DNA from: Nitrospirota bacterium
GTDB lineage: Bacteria; Nitrospirota; Nitrospiria; Nitrospirales; Nitrospiraceae
DNA: 64,000 bases
Direction: 5' to 3'
Assembly: GCA_040757595.1 (NCBI GenBank)
Contig: JBFLWP010000008.1
Span: 62,001-126,000 of the forward strand
The translations under genes were made by a program, and so were the position numbers. Under the pieces are notes generated by a model. The model saw only the letters and a list, made by a program, of their open reading frames with translations, was not told the DNA's origin and did no database searches. Shown here one piece after another: positions 29,497 through 61,844 of the stretch (positions are counted from its first letter, which is position 1; every line of letters begins with the position of its first letter).

Positions 29497-29559
29497 CGGG
29501 TGATGGAGTTCACCCCAACTGCCGAGGCCCGTGCGGGCGATCGGCTGATGACTCCTACT
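29497..29559 (+). ncRNA. fluoride riboswitch (crcB motif) 1
   Basis: The crcB-type aptamer core is visible: GGGTGATGGAGTTCACCC (P1 GGGTG/CACCC), AACTGCC, a P3 stem GCCGA/TCGGC closing an inner hairpin, then GGCTGATGACTCCTAC. The pseudoknot GGAGT (29505-29509) pairs with ACTCC (29551-29555). The same ACTCC is the first part of the terminator stem that follows, so ligand binding would block terminator formation and switch the gene on. The known ligand of this RNA class is fluoride. Confidence 0.93.
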
Positions 29560-29588
29560 GGCGTGGCGCCGGTAGGAGTTTTTTTTAT
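29551..29588 (+). terminator. riboswitch-controlled terminator 1
   Basis: ACTCCTACTGGCG pairs with CGCCGGTAGGAGT and is followed by eight T. The left strand overlaps the aptamer pseudoknot, the classical transcriptional on-switch layout. Confidence 0.9.
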
Positions 29589-29639
29589 TTTGGAGCAGAC
29601 GAAGGAAGACGCGACCAATCATCCAGCGAAGGGGGTCCC

Positions 29640-30088: not shown

Positions 30089-30152
30089 CGGGTGATGGGG
30101 TTCACCTGAACCGCCGGGGCCGGGAACGGGCCGCCGGCTGATGACTCCTACC
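30089..30152 (+). ncRNA. fluoride riboswitch (crcB motif) 2
   Basis: A second complete aptamer: GGTGATGGGGTTCACC (P1 GGTG/CACC), GAACCGCC, a GC-rich P3 hairpin and GGCTGATGACTCCTACC. The pseudoknot GGGGT (30097-30101) pairs with ACTCC (30144-30148) with one G-U. A well-formed promoter of its own is not obvious in front, so it may be reached by read-through from unit 1. Confidence 0.93.
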
Positions 30153-30179
30153 AGCGTGTCGCGCGGTAGGAGTTTTTTT
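30144..30179 (+). terminator. riboswitch-controlled terminator 2
   Basis: ACTCCTACC (30144-30152) pairs with GGTAGGAGT (30165-30173) and is followed by seven T. It shares its left strand with the pseudoknot of aptamer 2 and lies 20 bases before the dynamin-like gene. Confidence 0.88.
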
Positions 30180-30198
30180 GTTCTGAAGGAGGGGGCCC

Positions 30199-36597: not shown

Positions 36598-38403
36598 TCA
36601 GGGGCCGAGCGGACCGTGGGGCCCGAGCTTGGGCACGGGTGGGGTCGCCGGCAGACCCTTGACCATCGGCTCGTTGGCCAGGAGGCTGTAGCCGAACCGT
36701 TCCAGGATCACGGGAAAGCCGGCCGCCTCCGCCGGCAGGTTCGGCTTCATGCGGGAGGGGAGCAGGATCATCGTCCGGCCCGGTTGGGCGAGGTGCCGGC
36801 GCAACTGGTCCTCCTGGCCGGCGGGAACGAAGACGATCCTCCGTTTGGCGTAGAAGGTCAGCGAGGGGCGGGTGACGCCGTAGGCGATCAGCCGGTCGCC
36901 GGACTCGAGGTTCAGCCCCGCCGCATAGGCCAGCTCCTGGGGCGGGGCGATGAAATACCGGTTCACGCGCGGCAGGGTGACCAGCAGGGTCATGAGCAGG
37001 ACCAGGGCCAGGGTGGCGCCCGCCATCCAGAAAGCGGCGGGTCGCCGCTGCTCCGACAGGCCGTAGTAGGCCACGCCGGCCGATCCGAGCAGGAAGATGA
37101 AGCCCGCCGCCGGCGGCCCCATCCCCGGATCAACCTGGGGAGCGATCGGGAATTCCTTGGCGACCTGCTCGATGAACGAGGAGTAGAGGGCCGGCGCCGC
37201 CGCCAGGACGAACCCCAGCAGATAGCCCAGGCCGGTCATCAGGTGAATGGAGGCCCGGACGCCGCGCGTGGCCGGATCGGTCAGGCAGCGGTTCCAGTAG
37301 GAGGCGCACAGGATCGCGGCGGCCGGGAAGAGCGGGCCAAGGTAATGGGGCAGCCGCGTCGCGGACAGGCTGAAGAACAGGAACCCGGCCGCCAGCCAGA
37401 GGGCGGCGAAGAGCTCCAGCTCCTGCGGAGCTGGCGGGCTAGAGGCAAGGGGCGAGGGGCGAGGGGAAATCTTACTTTCCCCCTCGCGCCTCGCGCCTCT
37501 AGCCTCGCGCCAGCTTTTGAACGCGTCGTACAGGGCGAACGGCAGCAGCCCACTCCACGGAAAGAAACCGAGCAAGAGCACGGGAACATAGAAGAAGACC
37601 GTGCCCCCGTGCCCCTCCATGGCGCCCAGGAACCGGCTGACCGTGTCGGCCTGGGCCGACGCGGTGTAGCGGGCGCCGTGGATGGCCAGCATGGCGAGGT
37701 ACCAGGGGAGGGCCAGGCTCAGGAACAGCAGCGTGCCCGCCAGCGGAAAGCCGCGGCGCCCGAATTCCTTCCACCGGCGCACGAGCGTCAGGTAGGGGAC
37801 GACGGCCAGCAGAGGGACGGCCAGGCCGATCGGCCCCTTCGTGAGCGTGCCGAGCCCCATCCCCGCGTAGAAGAGCCAGAGAAAATGGCGCTGCGCCCCT
37901 TCCCCGTGCAGGCCCAGCCAGAAGCCGAACAGCGACAGAGTCGTCCAGAGGATCAACACGCCGTCCGTCAGCGCCATGTGCCCGATCGCCAGGATCTCCA
38001 CGTTCAGCAGCAGCATCAGCCCGCCCATGAGCCCGAAGACCGGGCCGCGCACCCGGGTCAGAAATCCGTACTGGAGCAGGACGAGCGCGATCCCGCTCAG
38101 GGCGGAGGGCAGGCGGGCCGTGAACTCGCTCACGCCCAGGAGCTTGTAGGAGGCCCCCATCAGCCAGTAGACGAAGGCCGGTTTCGCGAAGCGGGGTTCG
38201 TAGTTGAAGGTCGGGCTGATCCAGTCCCCGGTCTCGACCATCTCCCGGGCGGCTTCGGCGTTCCGCCCTTCGTCCCGGTCGGTCAGGCCGAGCGAGCCGA
38301 GGCCGAGGAAGAACAGGAGGCAGGCCAGTAGCAGAAGAAGAACGGGTGATGGGTGATGGGTGATGGGTGACGAGACCGTCTCCGTGGCGCCTGCACCTGT
38401 CAC
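36598..38403 (-). CDS. ArnT-like (GT83) membrane glycosyltransferase with in-frame repeat
   Basis: A 601-residue polytopic transferase using a polyprenyl-phosphate sugar donor. The signature GLTDRDEGRNAEAAREMVETGDW near residue 35 contains the catalytic Asp/Glu pair of the first periplasmic loop, followed by PTFNYEPRFAKPAFVYWLM. It has around 12 membrane segments. About 25 residues near position 298-322 (ARREGESKISPRPSPLASSP) come from a family B repeat and interrupt a loop without breaking the frame. The N-terminal SSPITHHPSP is encoded by a family A arm. With the LAB_N and GT2 genes upstream it forms the typical trio that modifies lipid A or other glycolipids. Confidence 0.88.
   Translation of the reverse strand: MTGAGATETVSSPITHHPSPVLLLLLACLLFFLGLGSLGLTDRDEGRNAEAAREMVETGDWISPTFNYEPRFAKPAFVYWLMGASYKLLGVSEFTARLPSALSGIALVLLQYGFLTRVRGPVFGLMGGLMLLLNVEILAIGHMALTDGVLILWTTLSLFGFWLGLHGEGAQRHFLWLFYAGMGLGTLTKGPIGLAVPLLAVVPYLTLVRRWKEFGRRGFPLAGTLLFLSLALPWYLAMLAIHGARYTASAQADTVSRFLGAMEGHGGTVFFYVPVLLLGFFPWSGLLPFALYDAFKSWREARGARREGESKISPRPSPLASSPPAPQELELFAALWLAAGFLFFSLSATRLPHYLGPLFPAAAILCASYWNRCLTDPATRGVRASIHLMTGLGYLLGFVLAAAPALYSSFIEQVAKEFPIAPQVDPGMGPPAAGFIFLLGSAGVAYYGLSEQRRPAAFWMAGATLALVLLMTLLVTLPRVNRYFIAPPQELAYAAGLNLESGDRLIAYGVTRPSLTFYAKRRIVFVPAGQEDQLRRHLAQPGRTMILLPSRMKPNLPAEAAGFPVILERFGYSLLANEPMVKGLPATPPVPKLGPHGPLGP
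37438..37512. repeat. family B palindrome inside the ArnT-like gene
   Basis: The left arm GCTAGAGGCAAGGGGCGAGG and further units and the right arm CCCCTCGCGCCTCGCGCCTC with CTAGCCTCGCG flank a short AATCTTACTTT centre. It is read through in frame by the transferase. Confidence 0.75.
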
Positions 38404-38430
38404 GCGTCACCCTTCACGCGTCACGCCGTC
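38343..38430. repeat. family A palindrome between the ArnT-like and LAB_N genes
   Basis: Left arm (38343-38372): GGGTGATGGGTGATGGGTGA and more. Right arm (38397-38430): TGTCACGCGTCACCCTTCAC and more. On the minus strand it encodes the last residues of the LAB_N protein (GVTREG) and the first of the transferase (SSPITHHPSPV). Confidence 0.77.
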
Positions 38431-38696: not shown

Positions 38697-38731
38697 TAGG
38701 CGAGAGGCGAGGGGCTAGAGGCGAGAGGAGT
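38697..38731. repeat. left arm of a family B palindrome carrying a gene
   Basis: AGGCGAGAGGCGAGGGGCTA and AGAGGCGAGAGGAG; the complementary arm is at 39101-39182. The four-helix-bundle gene (38715-39086) lies mostly between them and its last codons overlap this arm. Confidence 0.68.
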
Positions 38732-39086
38732 TTCGCCTCGCTTGGATGAGCCGGCCAATCCTTTTGCCCAGGGTCTCATATTCTTTTTCAAGCGTCTCAT
38801 ACATTGCCTTGCTGAGGCGCCCCGATTCATGCGTGATTTGGAGCTGCGTGCGCAACTCGGCGACTGAGCCTTTCGCAATGCAGAAATATCGAATCGATTC
38901 TTTGTCGGTGCTGCGTTCGTCCCCTTCGGCAATGTTACTGGCTACGCTTACCGCGCTGCGCCGTATCTGGTCTCTAAGGCCGAAGTCCAGATCCTTGAAA
39001 TCTTCATCGGATGCTCGATAAATCAGCACAGCGAGGTCCTTTGCCTTCTGCCAGACGGCCAAATCTTTGAACCCCTTCTTACCCAT
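38715..39086 (-). CDS. four-helix-bundle protein (S23 / rRNA intervening-sequence-type)
   Basis: A 123-residue helical protein of the four-helix-bundle (S23) family: KDLAVWQKAKDLAVLIYRA at the start, LRDQIRRSAVSVASNIAEGDER in the middle (the family hallmark) and FCIAKGSVAELRTQLQITHESG, then a last helix to the C-terminus. Relatives occur in rRNA intervening sequences and in isolated mobile-like positions; the biological role is not established. GC content is visibly lower than in the neighbours. The gene sits between the two arms of a family B palindrome, interrupting the GT2-LAB_N-ArnT trio. This suggests recent insertion. Confidence 0.85.
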   Translation of the reverse strand: MGKKGFKDLAVWQKAKDLAVLIYRASDEDFKDLDFGLRDQIRRSAVSVASNIAEGDERSTDKESIRYFCIAKGSVAELRTQLQITHESGRLSKAMYETLEKEYETLGKRIGRLIQARRNSSRL

Positions 39087-39100
39087 CTTGCCGGAAGGCC

Positions 39101-39182
39101 TTGTCCCTCTAGCCCCGCACCTCCCGCCCCGTGCCTTCCCCTTTGAGGCGTCCCTCGCCCCTTGCCTCTTGCCCCTCGCCTG
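39101..39182. repeat. right arm of the family B palindrome carrying the four-helix-bundle gene
   Basis: TGTCCCTCTAGCCCCGCACC and CCTCGCCCCTTGCCTCTTGC type units, complementary in kind to the arm at 38697-38731. It encodes the last residues of the GT2 protein (GEGQEARGEGRLKGEGTGRE). Confidence 0.68.
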
Positions 39183-39950: not shown

Positions 39951-40075
39951 CGAGTCACGAGTAAAACAGGCTCGTGGCGAGAGGCCCGGGGCGAGGGGAC
40001 GGATCGAAAACCTCTAGCCTCGCGCCCCGTGCCCCTAGCCTGAGTGACGCGTCACTTGTCACGCGTCACGGGGGC
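39951..40075. repeat. family A and family B repeats nested between GT2 and the 192-residue protein
   Basis: Outer family A traces (ACGAGTCACGAG at 39951; GTGACGCGTCACTTGTCACG at 40043) bracket a family B palindrome: GGCGAGAGGCCCGGGGCGAG then CCTCTAGCCTCGCGCCCCGT. The right part encodes the last residues SAPVTRDK of the next minus-strand gene. Confidence 0.68.
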
Positions 40076-40777: not shown

Positions 40778-42253
40778 ATGGCGACGCACAGCAAAAAAAA
40801 TCCCGACGCCCTGCCCCAGCTCATCGGCGAATTCAAGCCGGTGGACGAGTGGCAGGCGCACGTCGGCCAGATCTTCTACGGCCTGCTGGGCGGGCGCGTC
40901 CGCGACTACTACCAGACGTTCGGCACGGCCGATTACCGGCTCGCGCACGCGCTGGCCGCCGACTATTTCGAAAGGGTCGTGAAGCGTGATGCGTTACACG
41001 TGACGCGTGAGGAGAGCCGTCACCCTTCACCTGTCACGCGTCACGCGCCACCCCTCACGGTCATGGAATGGGGCTGCGGGAACGGCAACCTGGCCGCCTG
41101 TTTCCTCACGCACCTCAAGACCCTGGACAAGGAAGGGACAGTCTATCCCCGGATCCGGTACGTCCTGGTGGACAGCCAGCCGGCCATCATGGAAGCGGCC
41201 CGGACCCATCCGGATCTGGCGCCCCATCTGGAGCGCGTCGAGACCCTCTGCGCCGGCGCGGACAACCTCGCTTCCGTCCGGAGCGGGACGGTGGATCGCA
41301 TCTTCTGCAACGAGCTGTGGAACGAGCTGCCCACCAAGCTGATGCTCCGAAAGGGCACGGAGATCGAAGAGGAGCACCTCCGGCCCAACCTGAGCGAAGC
41401 CAAGCACGCGGCCATCGCCGACTGGTCCGGCTTCATCCGGGCCTTCGAAGAGAAGGACGTCCAGGCGCTGCGCGCGTTCCCCCCCTTCCTCGAGGACATC
41501 ATCTGGGAGCGGGAATATCACAAGACGGAATGGAAGTCGGTCCCCTACCGGAAGACGATCACGGAATTCCTCAAGAAGATTGACGAGCAGGTCCTGGTGC
41601 CGGTGAACCTGGGCGCCTTCGGGACCGTCAAGGAGGCCGTGCGTCTCCTGGCTCCCGATGCCGCGGGGTTCAGCAGCTTCGACGCGGGCACCCGGGACCT
41701 GAAGGTGCTGAACGATCCGGAGAAGCCCTGTTACGGGCTCTTCGGGGGGCAATACAGCTTCATGGTGAACTTTGCGCTCGTGGAGGCCGTGGCCGGGCAC
41801 CTGGGGCTGGCCGACGTGACGATCGAAGCCCAGAACGAGTTCGTCGGGCGGAGCCTGGGCACCAACGTGCTGACCCTGATGGATCTGCTGGCGACCTATC
41901 CCTCGGCGGGGACCCTCAAGCCCTGGGAGCGGGACCGGCTCGTCGTGAAGACGATCCGGGTGCTGAACGAGCACTACCGGAGCCCCTACGAGCGGAAGAT
42001 CGAGTTCCCGCTCGCCCAGGAGACGCCCCGGGAGGAGCGGGAGCTCCTGGAAGGCTTGCTGCAGTCGTTGAAGCGGGACGGGGTGCCGGACACGGTTGCC
42101 TATCTCAGCGAGGAAGAGCTCCTGGCGGCCATGCCGGGCCTGGAAGGCCTGGGGTACGAGCCGGACCTGGTCAAGGCCGCCCTCCGATTTCCCCAGCAGC
42201 CCGTGGACTATTACCACTTCTCTTTCGCCCCTGTTAAGATGAAGAACACATAG
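40778..42253 (+). CDS. SAM-dependent methyltransferase (MidA/PF02636-like) with in-frame repeat
   Basis: A 491-residue class I methyltransferase. The SAM-binding motif I is VMEWGCGNGNLAACFL near residue 97, the acidic post-motif II is VLVDSQPAIMEAARTHPDL, and FCNELWNELPTKLM follows, close to the NE-x-x-D-A-P/L-P motif of the MidA/NDUFAF7 family (the N-x-x-D is less well kept). Residues 68-95 (from RDALHVTREESRHPSPVTRH) are encoded by a complete family A palindrome placed just before motif I. The C-terminal 200 residues are unassigned. Stop at 42251. The frame is intact, so the palindrome is tolerated. Confidence 0.83.
   Translation: MATHSKKNPDALPQLIGEFKPVDEWQAHVGQIFYGLLGGRVRDYYQTFGTADYRLAHALAADYFERVVKRDALHVTREESRHPSPVTRHAPPLTVMEWGCGNGNLAACFLTHLKTLDKEGTVYPRIRYVLVDSQPAIMEAARTHPDLAPHLERVETLCAGADNLASVRSGTVDRIFCNELWNELPTKLMLRKGTEIEEEHLRPNLSEAKHAAIADWSGFIRAFEEKDVQALRAFPPFLEDIIWEREYHKTEWKSVPYRKTITEFLKKIDEQVLVPVNLGAFGTVKEAVRLLAPDAAGFSSFDAGTRDLKVLNDPEKPCYGLFGGQYSFMVNFALVEAVAGHLGLADVTIEAQNEFVGRSLGTNVLTLMDLLATYPSAGTLKPWERDRLVVKTIRVLNEHYRSPYERKIEFPLAQETPREERELLEGLLQSLKRDGVPDTVAYLSEEELLAAMPGLEGLGYEPDLVKAALRFPQQPVDYYHFSFAPVKMKNT
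40979..41060. repeat. family A palindrome inside the methyltransferase gene
   Basis: Left arm GTGAAGCGTGATGCGTTACA then CGTGACGCGTGAGG; right arm CCGTCACCCTTCACCTGTCA then CGCGTCACGCGCCACCCCTC. The complete element of about 82 bases is in frame. Confidence 0.8.
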
Positions 42254-43826: not shown

Positions 43827-45569
43827 ATGAGCAGCATCAGGAAGTGGAAAGGGTGGGTCTTCCACCCGATCGCGCTGGCCGCGGCCCTCGTGGTCGCCGG
43901 GTTCCAGCTTCTCGCCTCGCCGGTCCTGGCCGGGTACCAGCTACCCCCCGGCGAACGCATTACCAATCTTCCCCATATCCCGCGGTCCATGCCGCAGAAG
44001 GAGTCCTACGAGATCTACGACCCGGTCATCGGCCGGAACTTCGACGTCAAGAACCTGTGGCTGCGCGCGGACCTGCGCGTGAGGCCGGAGTTCCGGAACG
44101 GCGTCTGCTTCGGCGGCGGCGCGCCGGCCGGCGGGGCCTGTAACACCGCTTCGGTGCAGCGGGCCAACTCGGGCAAGGGCGCCAACGACTTCTACGTCCA
44201 ACAGTGGGTGCGCCTAGGCATCGGGTACGACCTCTCGCCGGACGTGAACTTCTACTTCGAGATCATTGACTCCGCGACGTGGGGTGCCAACGGCAACCCC
44301 AACAACGCGGGGAACGGCGGGGACCCGCTGAACCACAACTGCGGCGTGTCCGCTACCGGCGGCCAGTCCAACTGCCGGCTGGGCGTCCGGGCCGCCTACG
44401 TGTTGATCCGGAACCTGGGCGACATCCAGGGCCTGAGCATGAAGGCCGGACGGCAGTACGTGATCTTCGGCAACCACTCCCTGTTCGGCCACTTCGACTG
44501 GGCGAACACCGGCTATTCGCACGACGGGATCATGTTCCAGTATTCCACCAAGAACTTCGACTCCTACTTGGGGTGGTTCCGGAACGCGGAGACGGACATC
44601 TACCAGGGTGCGCCGGTCGGGAGCTTGGCGGCGAACGTGAACTGTACGACGGGCGGCGCGGTCGGTAGCGGCACGGCGGCGGGGACCGCTTGCGGCGCCG
44701 CTGCGCGGGCCGGCACGACGGACGGCTCGGCCGACGCGGACATGTTCATCTTCTACAACCAGATCAAGTCCGTGCCGGGCATGCTGATCGAGCCCTACTA
44801 CGTCCTGTACATGAACAACATGAACACGTTCAACAACAACGCCCAGGGCGTCGGCACTCCCAAGCACGCCAACCAGATCCGGTCCATGATCGGGAACCGC
44901 TTGGAAATCCGGAAGGGCAACTGGGACTTCATCAACGAGACGGCCTGGCAGACCGGCAGCATGTCGTCCGGCTCGGTGGCCGCCAACCCGCAAGCGCGGG
45001 ACCTGACCATCAACGCCTGGGCGACCAGGAACTGGTTGGGCTACACCTTCTACGAGTCCAAGTGGAAGCCCCGGATCGCGGTCGGCTTCGACTATGCCTC
45101 GGGCGACGGGAACGCCAACTGCGCGGGGGCCGGCGGGACTTCGCCCACGGCGGGCCGGCAGTGTAAGACCGCGAACACGTTCGAGAACTTCTTCCCGACG
45201 AACCACATCCACATGGGCTACATGGACATCATCGCCTGGAGGAACATGTGGAGCCCGCAGTTCAACTATCAGATGCGGCCGACGGAGCGGGACCACTTCG
45301 AGTTCTGGTACTCGCACCTGCGGCTGGCCAGCGCGCGGGACAACTGGTACCGGGGCGCGCAGGGCATCTACGTCTGGTCGGCGAACAACAACGACGCCAC
45401 GCACATCGGCGACGAGACGGACTTCACCTGGACGCGCATGTTTGCGGACGGCAAGGTCGCCTTCCAGGCCACGTACGGCCACCTGTTCACCGGCTCGTAC
45501 ATCGCCAAGAACCTGGGCACCCACTCCGATCAGAGCTGGGGCTTCGTGCAGCTCTGGATGAACTTCTAA
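43827..45569 (+). CDS. outer-membrane beta-barrel porin, paralogue 1
   Basis: A 580-residue secreted protein with a signal peptide (ALAAALVVAGFQLLASPVLAG) and alternating beta-strand sequence, ending QLWMNF with the terminal Phe required by the BAM machinery. The N-terminal segment LPPGERITNLPHIPRSMPQK and the SYEIYDPVIGRNFDVKNLWL stretch are shared almost word for word with the second porin at 46316. The domain pattern resembles alginate-export/porin families; the solute is unknown. It is preceded by AGGAGG. Large, highly transcribed surface porins of this kind are typical of Nitrospira-like organisms (inference). Confidence 0.82.
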   Translation: MSSIRKWKGWVFHPIALAAALVVAGFQLLASPVLAGYQLPPGERITNLPHIPRSMPQKESYEIYDPVIGRNFDVKNLWLRADLRVRPEFRNGVCFGGGAPAGGACNTASVQRANSGKGANDFYVQQWVRLGIGYDLSPDVNFYFEIIDSATWGANGNPNNAGNGGDPLNHNCGVSATGGQSNCRLGVRAAYVLIRNLGDIQGLSMKAGRQYVIFGNHSLFGHFDWANTGYSHDGIMFQYSTKNFDSYLGWFRNAETDIYQGAPVGSLAANVNCTTGGAVGSGTAAGTACGAAARAGTTDGSADADMFIFYNQIKSVPGMLIEPYYVLYMNNMNTFNNNAQGVGTPKHANQIRSMIGNRLEIRKGNWDFINETAWQTGSMSSGSVAANPQARDLTINAWATRNWLGYTFYESKWKPRIAVGFDYASGDGNANCAGAGGTSPTAGRQCKTANTFENFFPTNHIHMGYMDIIAWRNMWSPQFNYQMRPTERDHFEFWYSHLRLASARDNWYRGAQGIYVWSANNNDATHIGDETDFTWTRMFADGKVAFQATYGHLFTGSYIAKNLGTHSDQSWGFVQLWMNF

Positions 45570-46110: not shown

Positions 46111-46190
46111 ACGGGCGAGAGGCGCGGGGCGAGGGGCGAGAGGGAAGAAGTCCTCAGCCCCTAGCCTCTAGCCGCTTGCCTCAAGCCTGA
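46111..46190. repeat. family B palindrome before a terminator
   Basis: GGGCGAGAGGCGCGGGGCGA with GGGGCGAGAGG, then TCAGCCCCTAGCCTCTAGCC with GCTTGCCTCAAGCC. It stands between the small gene and its terminator. Confidence 0.72.
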
Positions 46191-46315: not shown

Positions 46316-48118
46316 ATGCTCTTGGAGTGTCTTGCGTATCTTGAAGATTTGTTCTTGCTCTTCACAGGGTTCGACGCCGAGAACGGCCGGATCGGAAACC
46401 TGCTCCGCGGCCTAGCCCTGACGTTCGTGTCGGTCCTGCCCTTCGTCGGCCTGTTGGTCGCCTCGCCGGCCCGGGCCGGGTACGAGCTGCCGCCGGGCGA
46501 GCGGATCACGAACCTGCCGCACATCCCCCGGTCCATGCCCCAGAAGGAGGCCTACGAGGTCTACGATCCGGTCATCGGCCGGAATTTCGACGTCAAGAAG
46601 CTCTGGATCCGCGCGGACCTCCGGGTCCGGCCCGAGTGGCGGAACGGGGTCTGCTTCGGCGGCGGAGCCCCGGCCGGCGGGGTCTGCAACAGCTTCAACA
46701 CGACCACCGGCACGGCCAACCGGGCCAACCAGGGGAAGGGCGCGAGCGACTTCTACGTCCAACAGTGGACGAGGCTGGGCCTCGGCTATGACCTGTCCCC
46801 GGACGTGAACTTCTACTTCGAGATGATTGACTCGGCCGTCTGGGGCGGCAACGGCAACCCGAACAACGCGGGGAACGGCGGGGACCCGTTGAACCACAAC
46901 TGCGGCGTGTCCGCTGCCGGGGGCCAGTCCAACTGCCGGCTGGGCGTCCGGGCCGGCTACGTGCTCATCCGCAACCTGGGCGACATCCAGGGCCTCAGCA
47001 TGAAGGCGGGCCGGCAGTATGTCGTGTTCGGCAACCACTCCCTCTTCGGCCACTTCGACTGGGCCAACACCGGCTACTCGCACGACGGGATCATGTTCCA
47101 GTATTCGACCAAGAAGATGGACACCTACCTGGGGTGGTTCCGGAGCTCGGAGACGGACCTCTATCAGGGCGCGCCGGTCGGGAGCCTGGCGGCGAACGTG
47201 AACTGTACGACCGGCGGCGCGGCCGGCAGCGCCACGGCGGCGGGCACCCCTTGCGGGGCCGCTGCGCGGAACGGCACGCCGGACGGGGGCGGCGACGCCA
47301 ACTGGTTCATCCTGTACAACCAGATCAAGGCCGTGCCGGGCTTCCTGTTCGAGCCCTACTACGTCCTGTACCTGAACGACCTGCCCGCCTCGGCCAACGC
47401 GGGGAACGGGATCGGGACGCCCAAGCACGCGGCCCAGACCCGGCACATGTTCGGCAACCGGACCGAGATGCGGAAGGGCAACTGGGACTTCATCAACGAG
47501 ACGGCCTGGCAAACCGGCCGGATGGCCTCCGGGATCGGCGGGAGCAACGACCGGAACCTGACGATCAACGCCTGGGCGACCAGGAACTGGCTGGGCTATA
47601 CGTTCTACGAGCACAAGTGGAAGCCGCGCGTGGCCGTCGGGTTCGACTACGCCTCCGGCGACGGGAACGCCAACTGCGCGAACGGCACCACCGCCTCGGC
47701 CGGCTATCGGTGCAAGACGGCCAACACGTTCGAGAACTTCTTCCCGACGAACTACATCCACGCGGGCTACATGCTGAACCACGCCTGGCGGAACTCGATC
47801 CAGCCGCAGGTGAACATCCAGGCTCGCCCCAGCGAGCGGGACCACATCGAGTTCTGGGGGCAGGCGCACTTCCTGGCCAACGCGCGGGACAACTGGTACC
47901 GCGGCGCGCAGGGACCCCTGGTCTACTCCCGGTCCGACAACACCACCAGCCACGTCGGGAACGAGACGGACTTCGCCTGGACGCGCATGTTCGCGGACGG
48001 GAAGGTCTCCTTCACCGTCACCTACGGGCACTTCTTCGCGGGGCAGTACGTGAAGAACAACCTGGGGACCTACGCGGACCAGGACTGGGGCATCATGCAG
48101 CTCTGGATGAACTTCTAA
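46316..48118 (+). CDS. outer-membrane beta-barrel porin, paralogue 2
   Basis: A 600-residue protein strongly similar to porin 1 (same LPPGERITNLPHIPRSMPQK, GRNFDVKKLWIRADLRVRPEW and final QLWMNF with terminal Phe). Its N-terminal region is longer: a first hydrophobic part (ECLAYLEDLFLLFTGF) precedes the signal-like segment FVSVLPFVGLLVASPARAG. Start ATG 46316 follows AGAAGGAATTG; a GTG at 46289 would add nine residues. It is transcribed separately behind a terminator. A duplication of an ancestral porin followed by divergence is the simplest reading; a difference in solute is not visible. Confidence 0.82.
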   Translation: MLLECLAYLEDLFLLFTGFDAENGRIGNLLRGLALTFVSVLPFVGLLVASPARAGYELPPGERITNLPHIPRSMPQKEAYEVYDPVIGRNFDVKKLWIRADLRVRPEWRNGVCFGGGAPAGGVCNSFNTTTGTANRANQGKGASDFYVQQWTRLGLGYDLSPDVNFYFEMIDSAVWGGNGNPNNAGNGGDPLNHNCGVSAAGGQSNCRLGVRAGYVLIRNLGDIQGLSMKAGRQYVVFGNHSLFGHFDWANTGYSHDGIMFQYSTKKMDTYLGWFRSSETDLYQGAPVGSLAANVNCTTGGAAGSATAAGTPCGAAARNGTPDGGGDANWFILYNQIKAVPGFLFEPYYVLYLNDLPASANAGNGIGTPKHAAQTRHMFGNRTEMRKGNWDFINETAWQTGRMASGIGGSNDRNLTINAWATRNWLGYTFYEHKWKPRVAVGFDYASGDGNANCANGTTASAGYRCKTANTFENFFPTNYIHAGYMLNHAWRNSIQPQVNIQARPSERDHIEFWGQAHFLANARDNWYRGAQGPLVYSRSDNTTSHVGNETDFAWTRMFADGKVSFTVTYGHFFAGQYVKNNLGTYADQDWGIMQLWMNF

Positions 48119-49911: not shown

Positions 49912-50057
49912 CCGGTGATAGGTGACGGGTGATCGGTAAAGGCGTTGCTCAGGCTAGGGGCAAGGGGCCAGAGGCTAGAGGATTGGGTCCGCCTCTTCGC
50001 CCCGCGCCACGAGCCTGTTTTAGACGTCACTCGCCACCGATCACCCTTCACCCATCA
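49912..50057. repeat. nested palindrome: family B inside family A
   Basis: Outer A arms (GTGATAGGTGACGGGTGATC at 49916; CACCGATCACCCTTCACCCA at 50036) enclose inner B arms (AGGCTAGGGGCAAGGGGCCA at 49951; CGCCTCTTCGCCCCGCGCCA at 49990) around a short centre. Order on the strand: A-left, B-left, B-right, A-right. Confidence 0.77.
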
Positions 50058-50171
50058 ATGCTCTGCCGTCCGTGGCCCATCATAGGGGAGACCCGGCGGA
50101 CGGTCAAGCAACCAGCAGGCGCGGACAGCAGGCAGTAGGCAGGAGGCAACGAATGGGCTAAGATTGCCTCC

Positions 50172-61028: not shown

Positions 61029-61844
61029 ATGGCCCAGGTTCTGCTGACCAAGCGGATCGAATTTGCGGCGGCGCACCGGTACCACAACGAGGCCTGGGAT
61101 GCCGCCCGCAACCGGGCCGTGTTCGGGGCCTGCAACAACGAACCGGGGCACGGCCACAACTACCTGTTGGAAGTCACCGTGGGCGGGGAGGTGGACGGAC
61201 GGACCGGCATGGTGGTCAATCTCTACGATCTCAAGCGGGTGCTCAAACAGGTCCTGGAGGCGTTCGATCACAAGCACCTGAACCTCGACACGCCCTACTT
61301 CACCCGCTCCATCCCGACGACCGAAAACCTGGCCCTGGTCCTCTGGAATCTCCTGGCCGCTCGTGCGGAAATCGGGCGTCTCGTGAAGGTCAGGCTGTTC
61401 GAGGACGACGACCTCTGTGCGGAGGTCACGGGGCCGGGCCCGGAGGCCTCGCTGACCCGCCGATACCATTTTTCCGCGGCCCACCGGCTGGCTTCCCCCA
61501 AACTGTCGGGGGCGGACAGCCAGCGGCTGTTCGGATCGTGTCTGACCGACGAGGGGCACGGCCACAACTACGTGCTGCACGTGACCGTCTGCGGCAAGAT
61601 CCATCCGGAAACCGGCATGGTCACGGACCTCCGCGCCCTCGACGCCGCGGTGCAGGATCGGGTCGTCCGGCGGTTCGACCACCGGGACCTCAACCAGGAC
61701 CCGGATCTGGCCGATCGCGCGGCGACGGGCGAGAACCTCGTACGGTTGGTCTGGGATCTTCTGGTGAAAGCGCTCCCGGCCGGCCGGCTGGAGAAGGTCG
61801 GCTTGGCCGAGACCAGGGATACGTATTTCGAGTATGCCGGCTAG
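61029..61844 (+). CDS. tandem-domain 6-pyruvoyl-tetrahydropterin synthase/QueD-like protein
   Basis: A 271-residue protein composed of two complete 6-PTPS/QueD domains in tandem. Domain 1 (about 1-130): KRIEFAAAHRYH, FGACNNEPGHGHNYLLEVTV, then TGMVVNLYDLKRVL and FDHKHLNLD. Domain 2 (about 143-271): YHFSAAHRL, FGSCLTDEGHGHNYVLHVTV, TGMVTDLRALDAAV and FDHRDLNQD. In each domain the zinc ligands His...HxH are intact and the Cys before the zinc site is kept. QueD enzymes are usually single-domain, ~120 residues, forming hexamers, so the fusion may replace half of the subunits. A queuosine or pterin role is expected. Confidence 0.87.
   Translation: MAQVLLTKRIEFAAAHRYHNEAWDAARNRAVFGACNNEPGHGHNYLLEVTVGGEVDGRTGMVVNLYDLKRVLKQVLEAFDHKHLNLDTPYFTRSIPTTENLALVLWNLLAARAEIGRLVKVRLFEDDDLCAEVTGPGPEASLTRRYHFSAAHRLASPKLSGADSQRLFGSCLTDEGHGHNYVLHVTVCGKIHPETGMVTDLRALDAAVQDRVVRRFDHRDLNQDPDLADRAATGENLVRLVWDLLVKALPAGRLEKVGLAETRDTYFEYAG

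Follow-up and report, generated by a model that had tools for sequence, protein, structure and literature searches.

The DNA analysed here (the window: 64,000 nucleotides of one contig of a Nitrospirota bacterium) contains a methyltransferase gene that is interrupted, in frame, by a palindrome (Table 1). At 40979-41058(+), we found two degenerate heptamer arrays in inverted orientation, which together make an element of ~80-82 nt; both the heptamer scan and direct reading of the sequence place it where the preliminary description had reported a complete palindrome. The left arm consists of five units of the form GTGANNS (in order: GTGAAGC, GTGATGC, GTTACAC, GTGACGC, and GTGAGGA) and the right arm of six units of the TCAC type (CCGTCAC, CCTTCAC, CTGTCAC, GCGTCAC, GCGCCAC, and CCCTCAC). 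The outermost left unit overlaps GTGAAGCG, which reads V-K-R, and the outermost right unit overlaps CCCCTCACG, which reads P-L-T, and both are present in homologues that lack the element as well. Since the outer units overlap conserved host codons, the net insert spans ~40988-41050 and adds ~21 residues, fewer than the ~27 counted previously, which had included the V-K-R and P-L-T codons of the host. The RNA fold of the insert is stable (z -4.6 at -37.9 kcal/mol; a fold this stable in none of 200 shuffles), and the DNA fold has a z of -3.0. In an AlphaFold2 model of the methyltransferase (pLDDT 89 overall, ~60 around the loop) the loop runs between helix 53-81 and the first strand, 93-98; the best PDB matches of this model are 4f3n, 1zkd, and 4g67 (COG1565) together with 5zu0 (MidA). 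We also observed a second strong quasi-palindrome (e.g., CGATCGCGTCGTTCGACGCGATCG) in the DRVVRRD codons directly upstream of the insert at five loci (L010, L019, L020, L034, and L055), which is possibly a target hairpin.

Table 1. Positions of the heptamer elements and their host or neighbouring genes within the window.
Feature	Position	Strand	Basis or remark
Second in-frame coding palindrome, family B, codes EARGARREGESKISPRPSPLASSP	37436..37512	+	inside glycosyltransferase gene 36598-38403(-); Pfam PMT
Family A palindrome at gene junction 5' of glycosyltransferase	38346..38424	+	heptamer scan
Family B left arm of IVP element (units AGGCGAG, AGGCGAG, GGGCTAG, AGGCGAG)	38698..38725	+	overlaps 3' end of IVP gene
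IVP/S23 gene, PF05635 23S_rRNA_IVP, within family B arms	38715..39086	-	1.6e-32; matches 2gsc (Xcc0516, solved S23 pentamer)
Family B right arm(s) of IVP element	39109..39181 (39109-39136 + 39154-39181)	+	heptamer scan
Family B palindrome adjoining family A units (40042-40069)	39968..40069	+	heptamer scan
COG1565/MidA-like SAM methyltransferase gene, 491 aa, carrying the palindrome	40778..42253	+	ORF; Methyltransf_28 7.4e-7
Left arm of insert, 5 heptamers GTGANNS	40979..41013	+	first ~9 nt = host VKR codons; unit 3, GTTACAC, mutated at in-frame TGA position
Palindrome centre, gag, 3 nt	41014..41016	+	heptamer scan
Right arm of insert, 6 TCAC-type heptamers	41017..41058	+	last ~9 nt = host P-L-T codons

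The 491-aa reading frame is open through the palindrome, and in a dicodon model the coding signal is strong on either flank, in agreement with the earlier statement that the frame is kept and that both flanks are normal. With a unit of 7 nt, which 3 does not divide, three successive intact GTGA units place a TGA in each of the three frames. In the methyltransferase insert the stop-phase unit reads TTA and is the sole one of five with an altered GTGA core; the same unit reads TCG in a relative (L002) and TTA in another copy (C6:15586), which indicates selection for read-through. The loop of another homologue (L003) has lost two units (14 nt) and, offsetting this, a further 10 nt, so that the frame is restored. 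The stop-phase changes and these balanced losses support translation through the insert, which would be expected since its length keeps the frame and its single TGA-reading unit is changed. With the frame kept, the stop-phase unit mutated, and the loop tolerant, the element thus appears to behave as the protein-coding palindrome that it had been taken for.

Next, we examined how widespread such arrays are in a sample of 864 kb, or roughly one quarter, from the 3.37-Mb draft genome, whose relatives are Nitrospira and other Nitrospirota. Lag 7 was the strongest tandem period, with 118 runs, followed by lag 14 (35 runs) and lag 12 (33 runs). Two families, A (GTGANNS) and B (RGGCNNG), accounted for 118 elements; family A arms numbered 86, versus 0 in shuffled sequence and 5 for the reversed unit. 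The order of the arms is fixed (A and B: 52 left..right pairs and 0 right..left pairs), and, on gene calls from a home-made dicodon model, 20/118 elements lay well inside genes versus 74% of random positions. The densest stretch sampled was 37-50 kb of the window, with 16 elements where 1.8 were expected. Every copy has its own centre and unit order, and the lack of homology between centres implies that the short forms did not arise by simple deletion from one parent. In family A an arm pairs best with its own partner (p 0.0002 against other arms), whereas in family B swapped partners pair better than the true ones (e.g., 37436-37512 and 46113-46188 in the window), perhaps because there are two types of arm or because perfect hairpins are avoided. 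As the two families behave oppositely, arm-to-arm matching is no general rule, and the family B arms led us to reject a maintained perfect hairpin. At 49914-50058 of the window, family A arms enclose a nested family B half-palindrome; one element has apparently been inserted into the other.

Repeats of other kinds were also seen in the window. Tandem DNA blocks at 43827-45569 and ~46400-48118 are 77-88% identical, the first coding a 580-aa porin-like ORF; duplicated segments at 61120-61186 and 61528-61594 code GHGHNY, as in 6-pyruvoyl-tetrahydropterin synthase-like domains; and at 29534-29598 and 30127-30191, 593 bp apart, there is a repeated terminator-like element, a hairpin with a T-run after it (ACTCCTAC...GTAGGAGTTTTTTT), in two similar copies.

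We then compared 55 methyltransferase loci that were fetched as homologues and aligned, among which there were 46 distinct loops. The loop, just before SAM motif I, measures ~5-45 residues in the aligned homologues and is absent from several relatives. A lag-7 score of at least 15/21 was reached in 15/46 distinct loops versus 0/524 windows elsewhere in these genes, and none of the loops was strongly periodic at lags 5, 8, 10, or 11. Family A occupies the loop in the window and in sister genomes, while other homologues carry B, C (GGCAATN), D (AGTTCGA), E (GGGGTNA), or G (CGTCAAA). One genome (G016) has a hexamer family in this loop, which accounts for it, and its candidacy as a heptamer family was rejected. 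The families switch between close relatives, and the tree requires no fewer than 16 changes of label. One and the same loop has been struck by different heptamer families in different species. The preliminary description had proposed an alignment to see whether the inserted residues are absent elsewhere; in homologues, loops of similar length are frequent, but many of them are in turn other heptamer palindromes. Between L007 and L034 a family B insert makes the difference, with loop ends too diverged for exact junctions, and among the compared loci we found neither a target-site duplication nor a recent empty/filled pair.

The nearby glycosyltransferase, 36598-38403(-), has a loop of like kind. 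In four genomes the methyltransferase and glycosyltransferase loops share their family (C in G004, D in G002, and B in G015 and G019). Families C and D were not found in the genome of the window; the few genomes that have them include those with C or D in both loops. In-frame insertion was found in unrelated proteins, namely the methyltransferase, the glycosyltransferase, an ATPase-like gene, and an Lhr-like gene. The Lhr-like helicase gene (1511 aa; G000 C1:219257-223790; L066-L067) apparently holds four in-frame heptamer elements, two of family A and two of family B. A 'gene' at C1:20218 is probably a false ORF and was dropped from the evidence.

At 38698-39181, 1.9 kb from the methyltransferase insert, family B arms enclose an IVP/S23 gene (Table 1). 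To ask how general this arrangement is, we tested 60 further PF05635 genes from Nitrospiraceae and another 17 that lie on plasmids of cyanobacteria, Azospirillum, and Gemmatirosa, some of the loci being related, for complementary inverted arms scoring ≥14 within 200 bp of the gene, a threshold chosen for this analysis. Such arms were present at 48/60 Nitrospiraceae loci (80%) and 16/17 plasmid loci (94%), where, as in the element of the window, an S23/IVP ORF lies within a terminal inverted repeat; among control small genes the figures were 1.5% of 263 (genome of the window) and 0/58 (cyanobacterial plasmids), an enrichment of p = 2e-29 for the Nitrospiraceae set. At 12/60 Nitrospiraceae loci no clear inverted arm pair was found at a score of ≥14. 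Picked by complementarity alone, the IVP arms peak at lag 7 (0.43 and 0.52 vs ~0.25-0.38 at neighbouring lags). Pairs of IVPs that are ≥60% identical have similar arms (median 18 vs 7), and although most close-kin copies share one locus (vertical inheritance), the arm family was common to 9/12 such pairs with unrelated flanks, two of these pairs each within one genome. IVP and arm family travel together, also at unrelated loci. Heptamer load correlates with IVP copy number, with a rho of 0.55 within the family and of 0.72 over 61 genomes. IVP arms from the same genome fit the methyltransferase loop better than IVP arms from elsewhere (permutation p = 5e-5), including the unusual hexamer family of G016; in this matching the loop of the window ranks only third for its own genome. 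Family A arms surround IVP genes in the relatives G016 and G002 but not in the genome of the window, where the nearest IVP element is of family B. Two IVP genes with heptamer-type arms lie among CRISPR-associated genes, between cas6 and cas4 in Pseudanabaena (L190) and between cas10 and cmr3 in Picosynechococcus (L196).

Beyond what the preliminary description had recognised, the insert is part of genome-specific degenerate heptamer arrays, the same arrays that form the arms of IVP/S23 genes. It does not contain the S23/IVP ORF and it resides in a protein gene, not in rRNA as intervening sequences (IVSs) do; at ~80-82 nt and lacking an IVP gene, it would be at most a short derivative of an IVS/S23 element. 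We consider it probable that the insert represents the short form, without the gene, of an IVS-like (IVP) mobile palindrome and that this copy became fixed in a tolerant loop. As such palindromes flank S23/IVP genes in several phyla, it looks like the translated remnant of an overlooked mobile element. The long form of this element would comprise a heptamer-array arm, the gene for the four-helix-bundle IVP/S23 protein, and a complementary heptamer-array arm; short forms, with both arms and a short centre, would be scattered genome-wide, mostly between genes. One of the latter would have settled in the length-tolerant loop of the methyltransferase, and likewise in that of the nearby glycosyltransferase, giving a peptide that is presumably made and harmless. 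The IVP protein may bind the arms and help copy both forms, the short one in trans, to new sites. To our knowledge IVP has no catalytic activity, so that another enzyme would be needed for the copying itself.

The alternative with the best standing, which we regard as unlikely but worth keeping, is that heptamer palindromes spread passively, by slippage, template switching, and gene conversion with no dedicated protein, and that IVP genes merely share the same tolerant intergenic spots. The degenerate units, the unit-sized indels (14 nt in L003), and the host codons GTGAAGCG and CTCACG, which could seed units, speak in its favour, and slippage-type origins of heptamers have already been proposed (PMC4679880). 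Passive spread does not readily account for the fixed 52:0 arm order, for most tested IVP genes of several phyla lying between complementary arms, or for an arm family that follows the IVP lineage even at unrelated loci. We retain it because centres are non-homologous between copies and no exact junctions were found.

It is very unlikely that the palindrome is kept because its peptide or mRNA hairpin is useful to the methyltransferase (e.g., in regulation or RNase III control). While the RNA hairpin is stable and the loop is occupied in many species, neither sequence nor family is conserved, loop length runs from ~5 to 45 residues with several relatives going without, the model has a confidence of only ~60 there, and the loops follow the resident family of the genome.

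We looked also at small repeats driven by a transposase, of the REP/RAYT or Rickettsia type, which would likewise be palindromic, dispersed, and inserted in frame. RAYT is a Y1 transposase, and as in REP/RAYT systems palindromes here come with a linked gene; that gene, however, is IVP, and Y1/RAYT counts do not track heptamer load (rho -0.07; n = 37), so we rejected these transposases as the driver. Rickettsia palindromic elements are defined by conserved element sequences, whereas only the heptamer design is common to the copies described here. The resemblance to them suggested in the preliminary description therefore applies to the effect, in-frame insertion into unrelated proteins, and not to membership, as there is no single conserved element sequence or core, and we hold an origin of either type to be highly improbable. 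In the cited account of Rickettsia, palindromes in frame in proteins are tolerated (Ogata 2000, 2002, as cited in PMC6649704). That the methyltransferase frame is a pseudogene or an assembly artefact is scarcely credible: although the source, in 36 contigs, appears to be a draft genome, the 491-aa frame is intact between coding flanks, and two sister genomes have an orthologous insert of the same family with the frame kept.

Among known systems, the closest are the rRNA IVSs of Leptospira and Coxiella, in which a stem surrounds an S23/IVP ORF and whose function, origin, and mobility are unsolved (PMC4990558). As in the 23S rRNA IVSs, the S23/IVP gene is enclosed by a stem that a terminal inverted repeat makes, and the sites are tolerant hairpin tips or loops; unlike them, the arms here are arrays of 7-nt (rarely 6-nt) units, the sites are intergenic or in protein loops, gene-less short forms are common, and a coding copy must be translated, not excised. 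Heptamer repeats have been reported in Nostoc (PMC2670836) and Beggiatoaceae (PMC4679880), and cyanobacterial STRRs are 7-bp degenerate tandem repeats that form hairpins, according to the summary of them in PMC2670836. Our elements likewise have degenerate 7-nt units in many copies and hairpin-forming inverted pairs, and the cyanobacterial plasmid IVP genes examined bear arms of the kind so summarised, but the Nitrospiraceae families have other sequences. The heptanucleotide elements of Geobacter metallireducens are tandem, lie between and within genes, and are in some cases drawn as strand-switching pairs; the available portion of that report reads them as regulator-binding or RNA elements and gives no link to IVP (PMC2700814). 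The coding palindromes of Nematomorpha mitochondria are inverted repeats translated within protein genes (PMC6649704), and they differ in being long perfect repeats in conserved regions rather than dispersed heptamer arrays. A link between heptamers and IVP/S23 was not found in the part of the open literature that was searched.

The chances seem to us about even that heptamer palindromes with IVP/S23 constitute a widespread mobile class, in which the four-helix-bundle IVP pentamer would recognise 7-nt arrays. This class would take in cyanobacterial STRRs, Geobacter heptanucleotide elements, and rRNA IVSs, as members or as short forms, and its short forms would add translated peptides to protein loops. 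Three hitherto separate questions, namely what S23/IVP does, how rRNA intervening sequences move, and where bacterial heptamer repeats come from, are joined here and made testable. The coding copies suggest how a repeat with a unit length that three does not divide may enter a protein, once its one stop-reading unit has changed.
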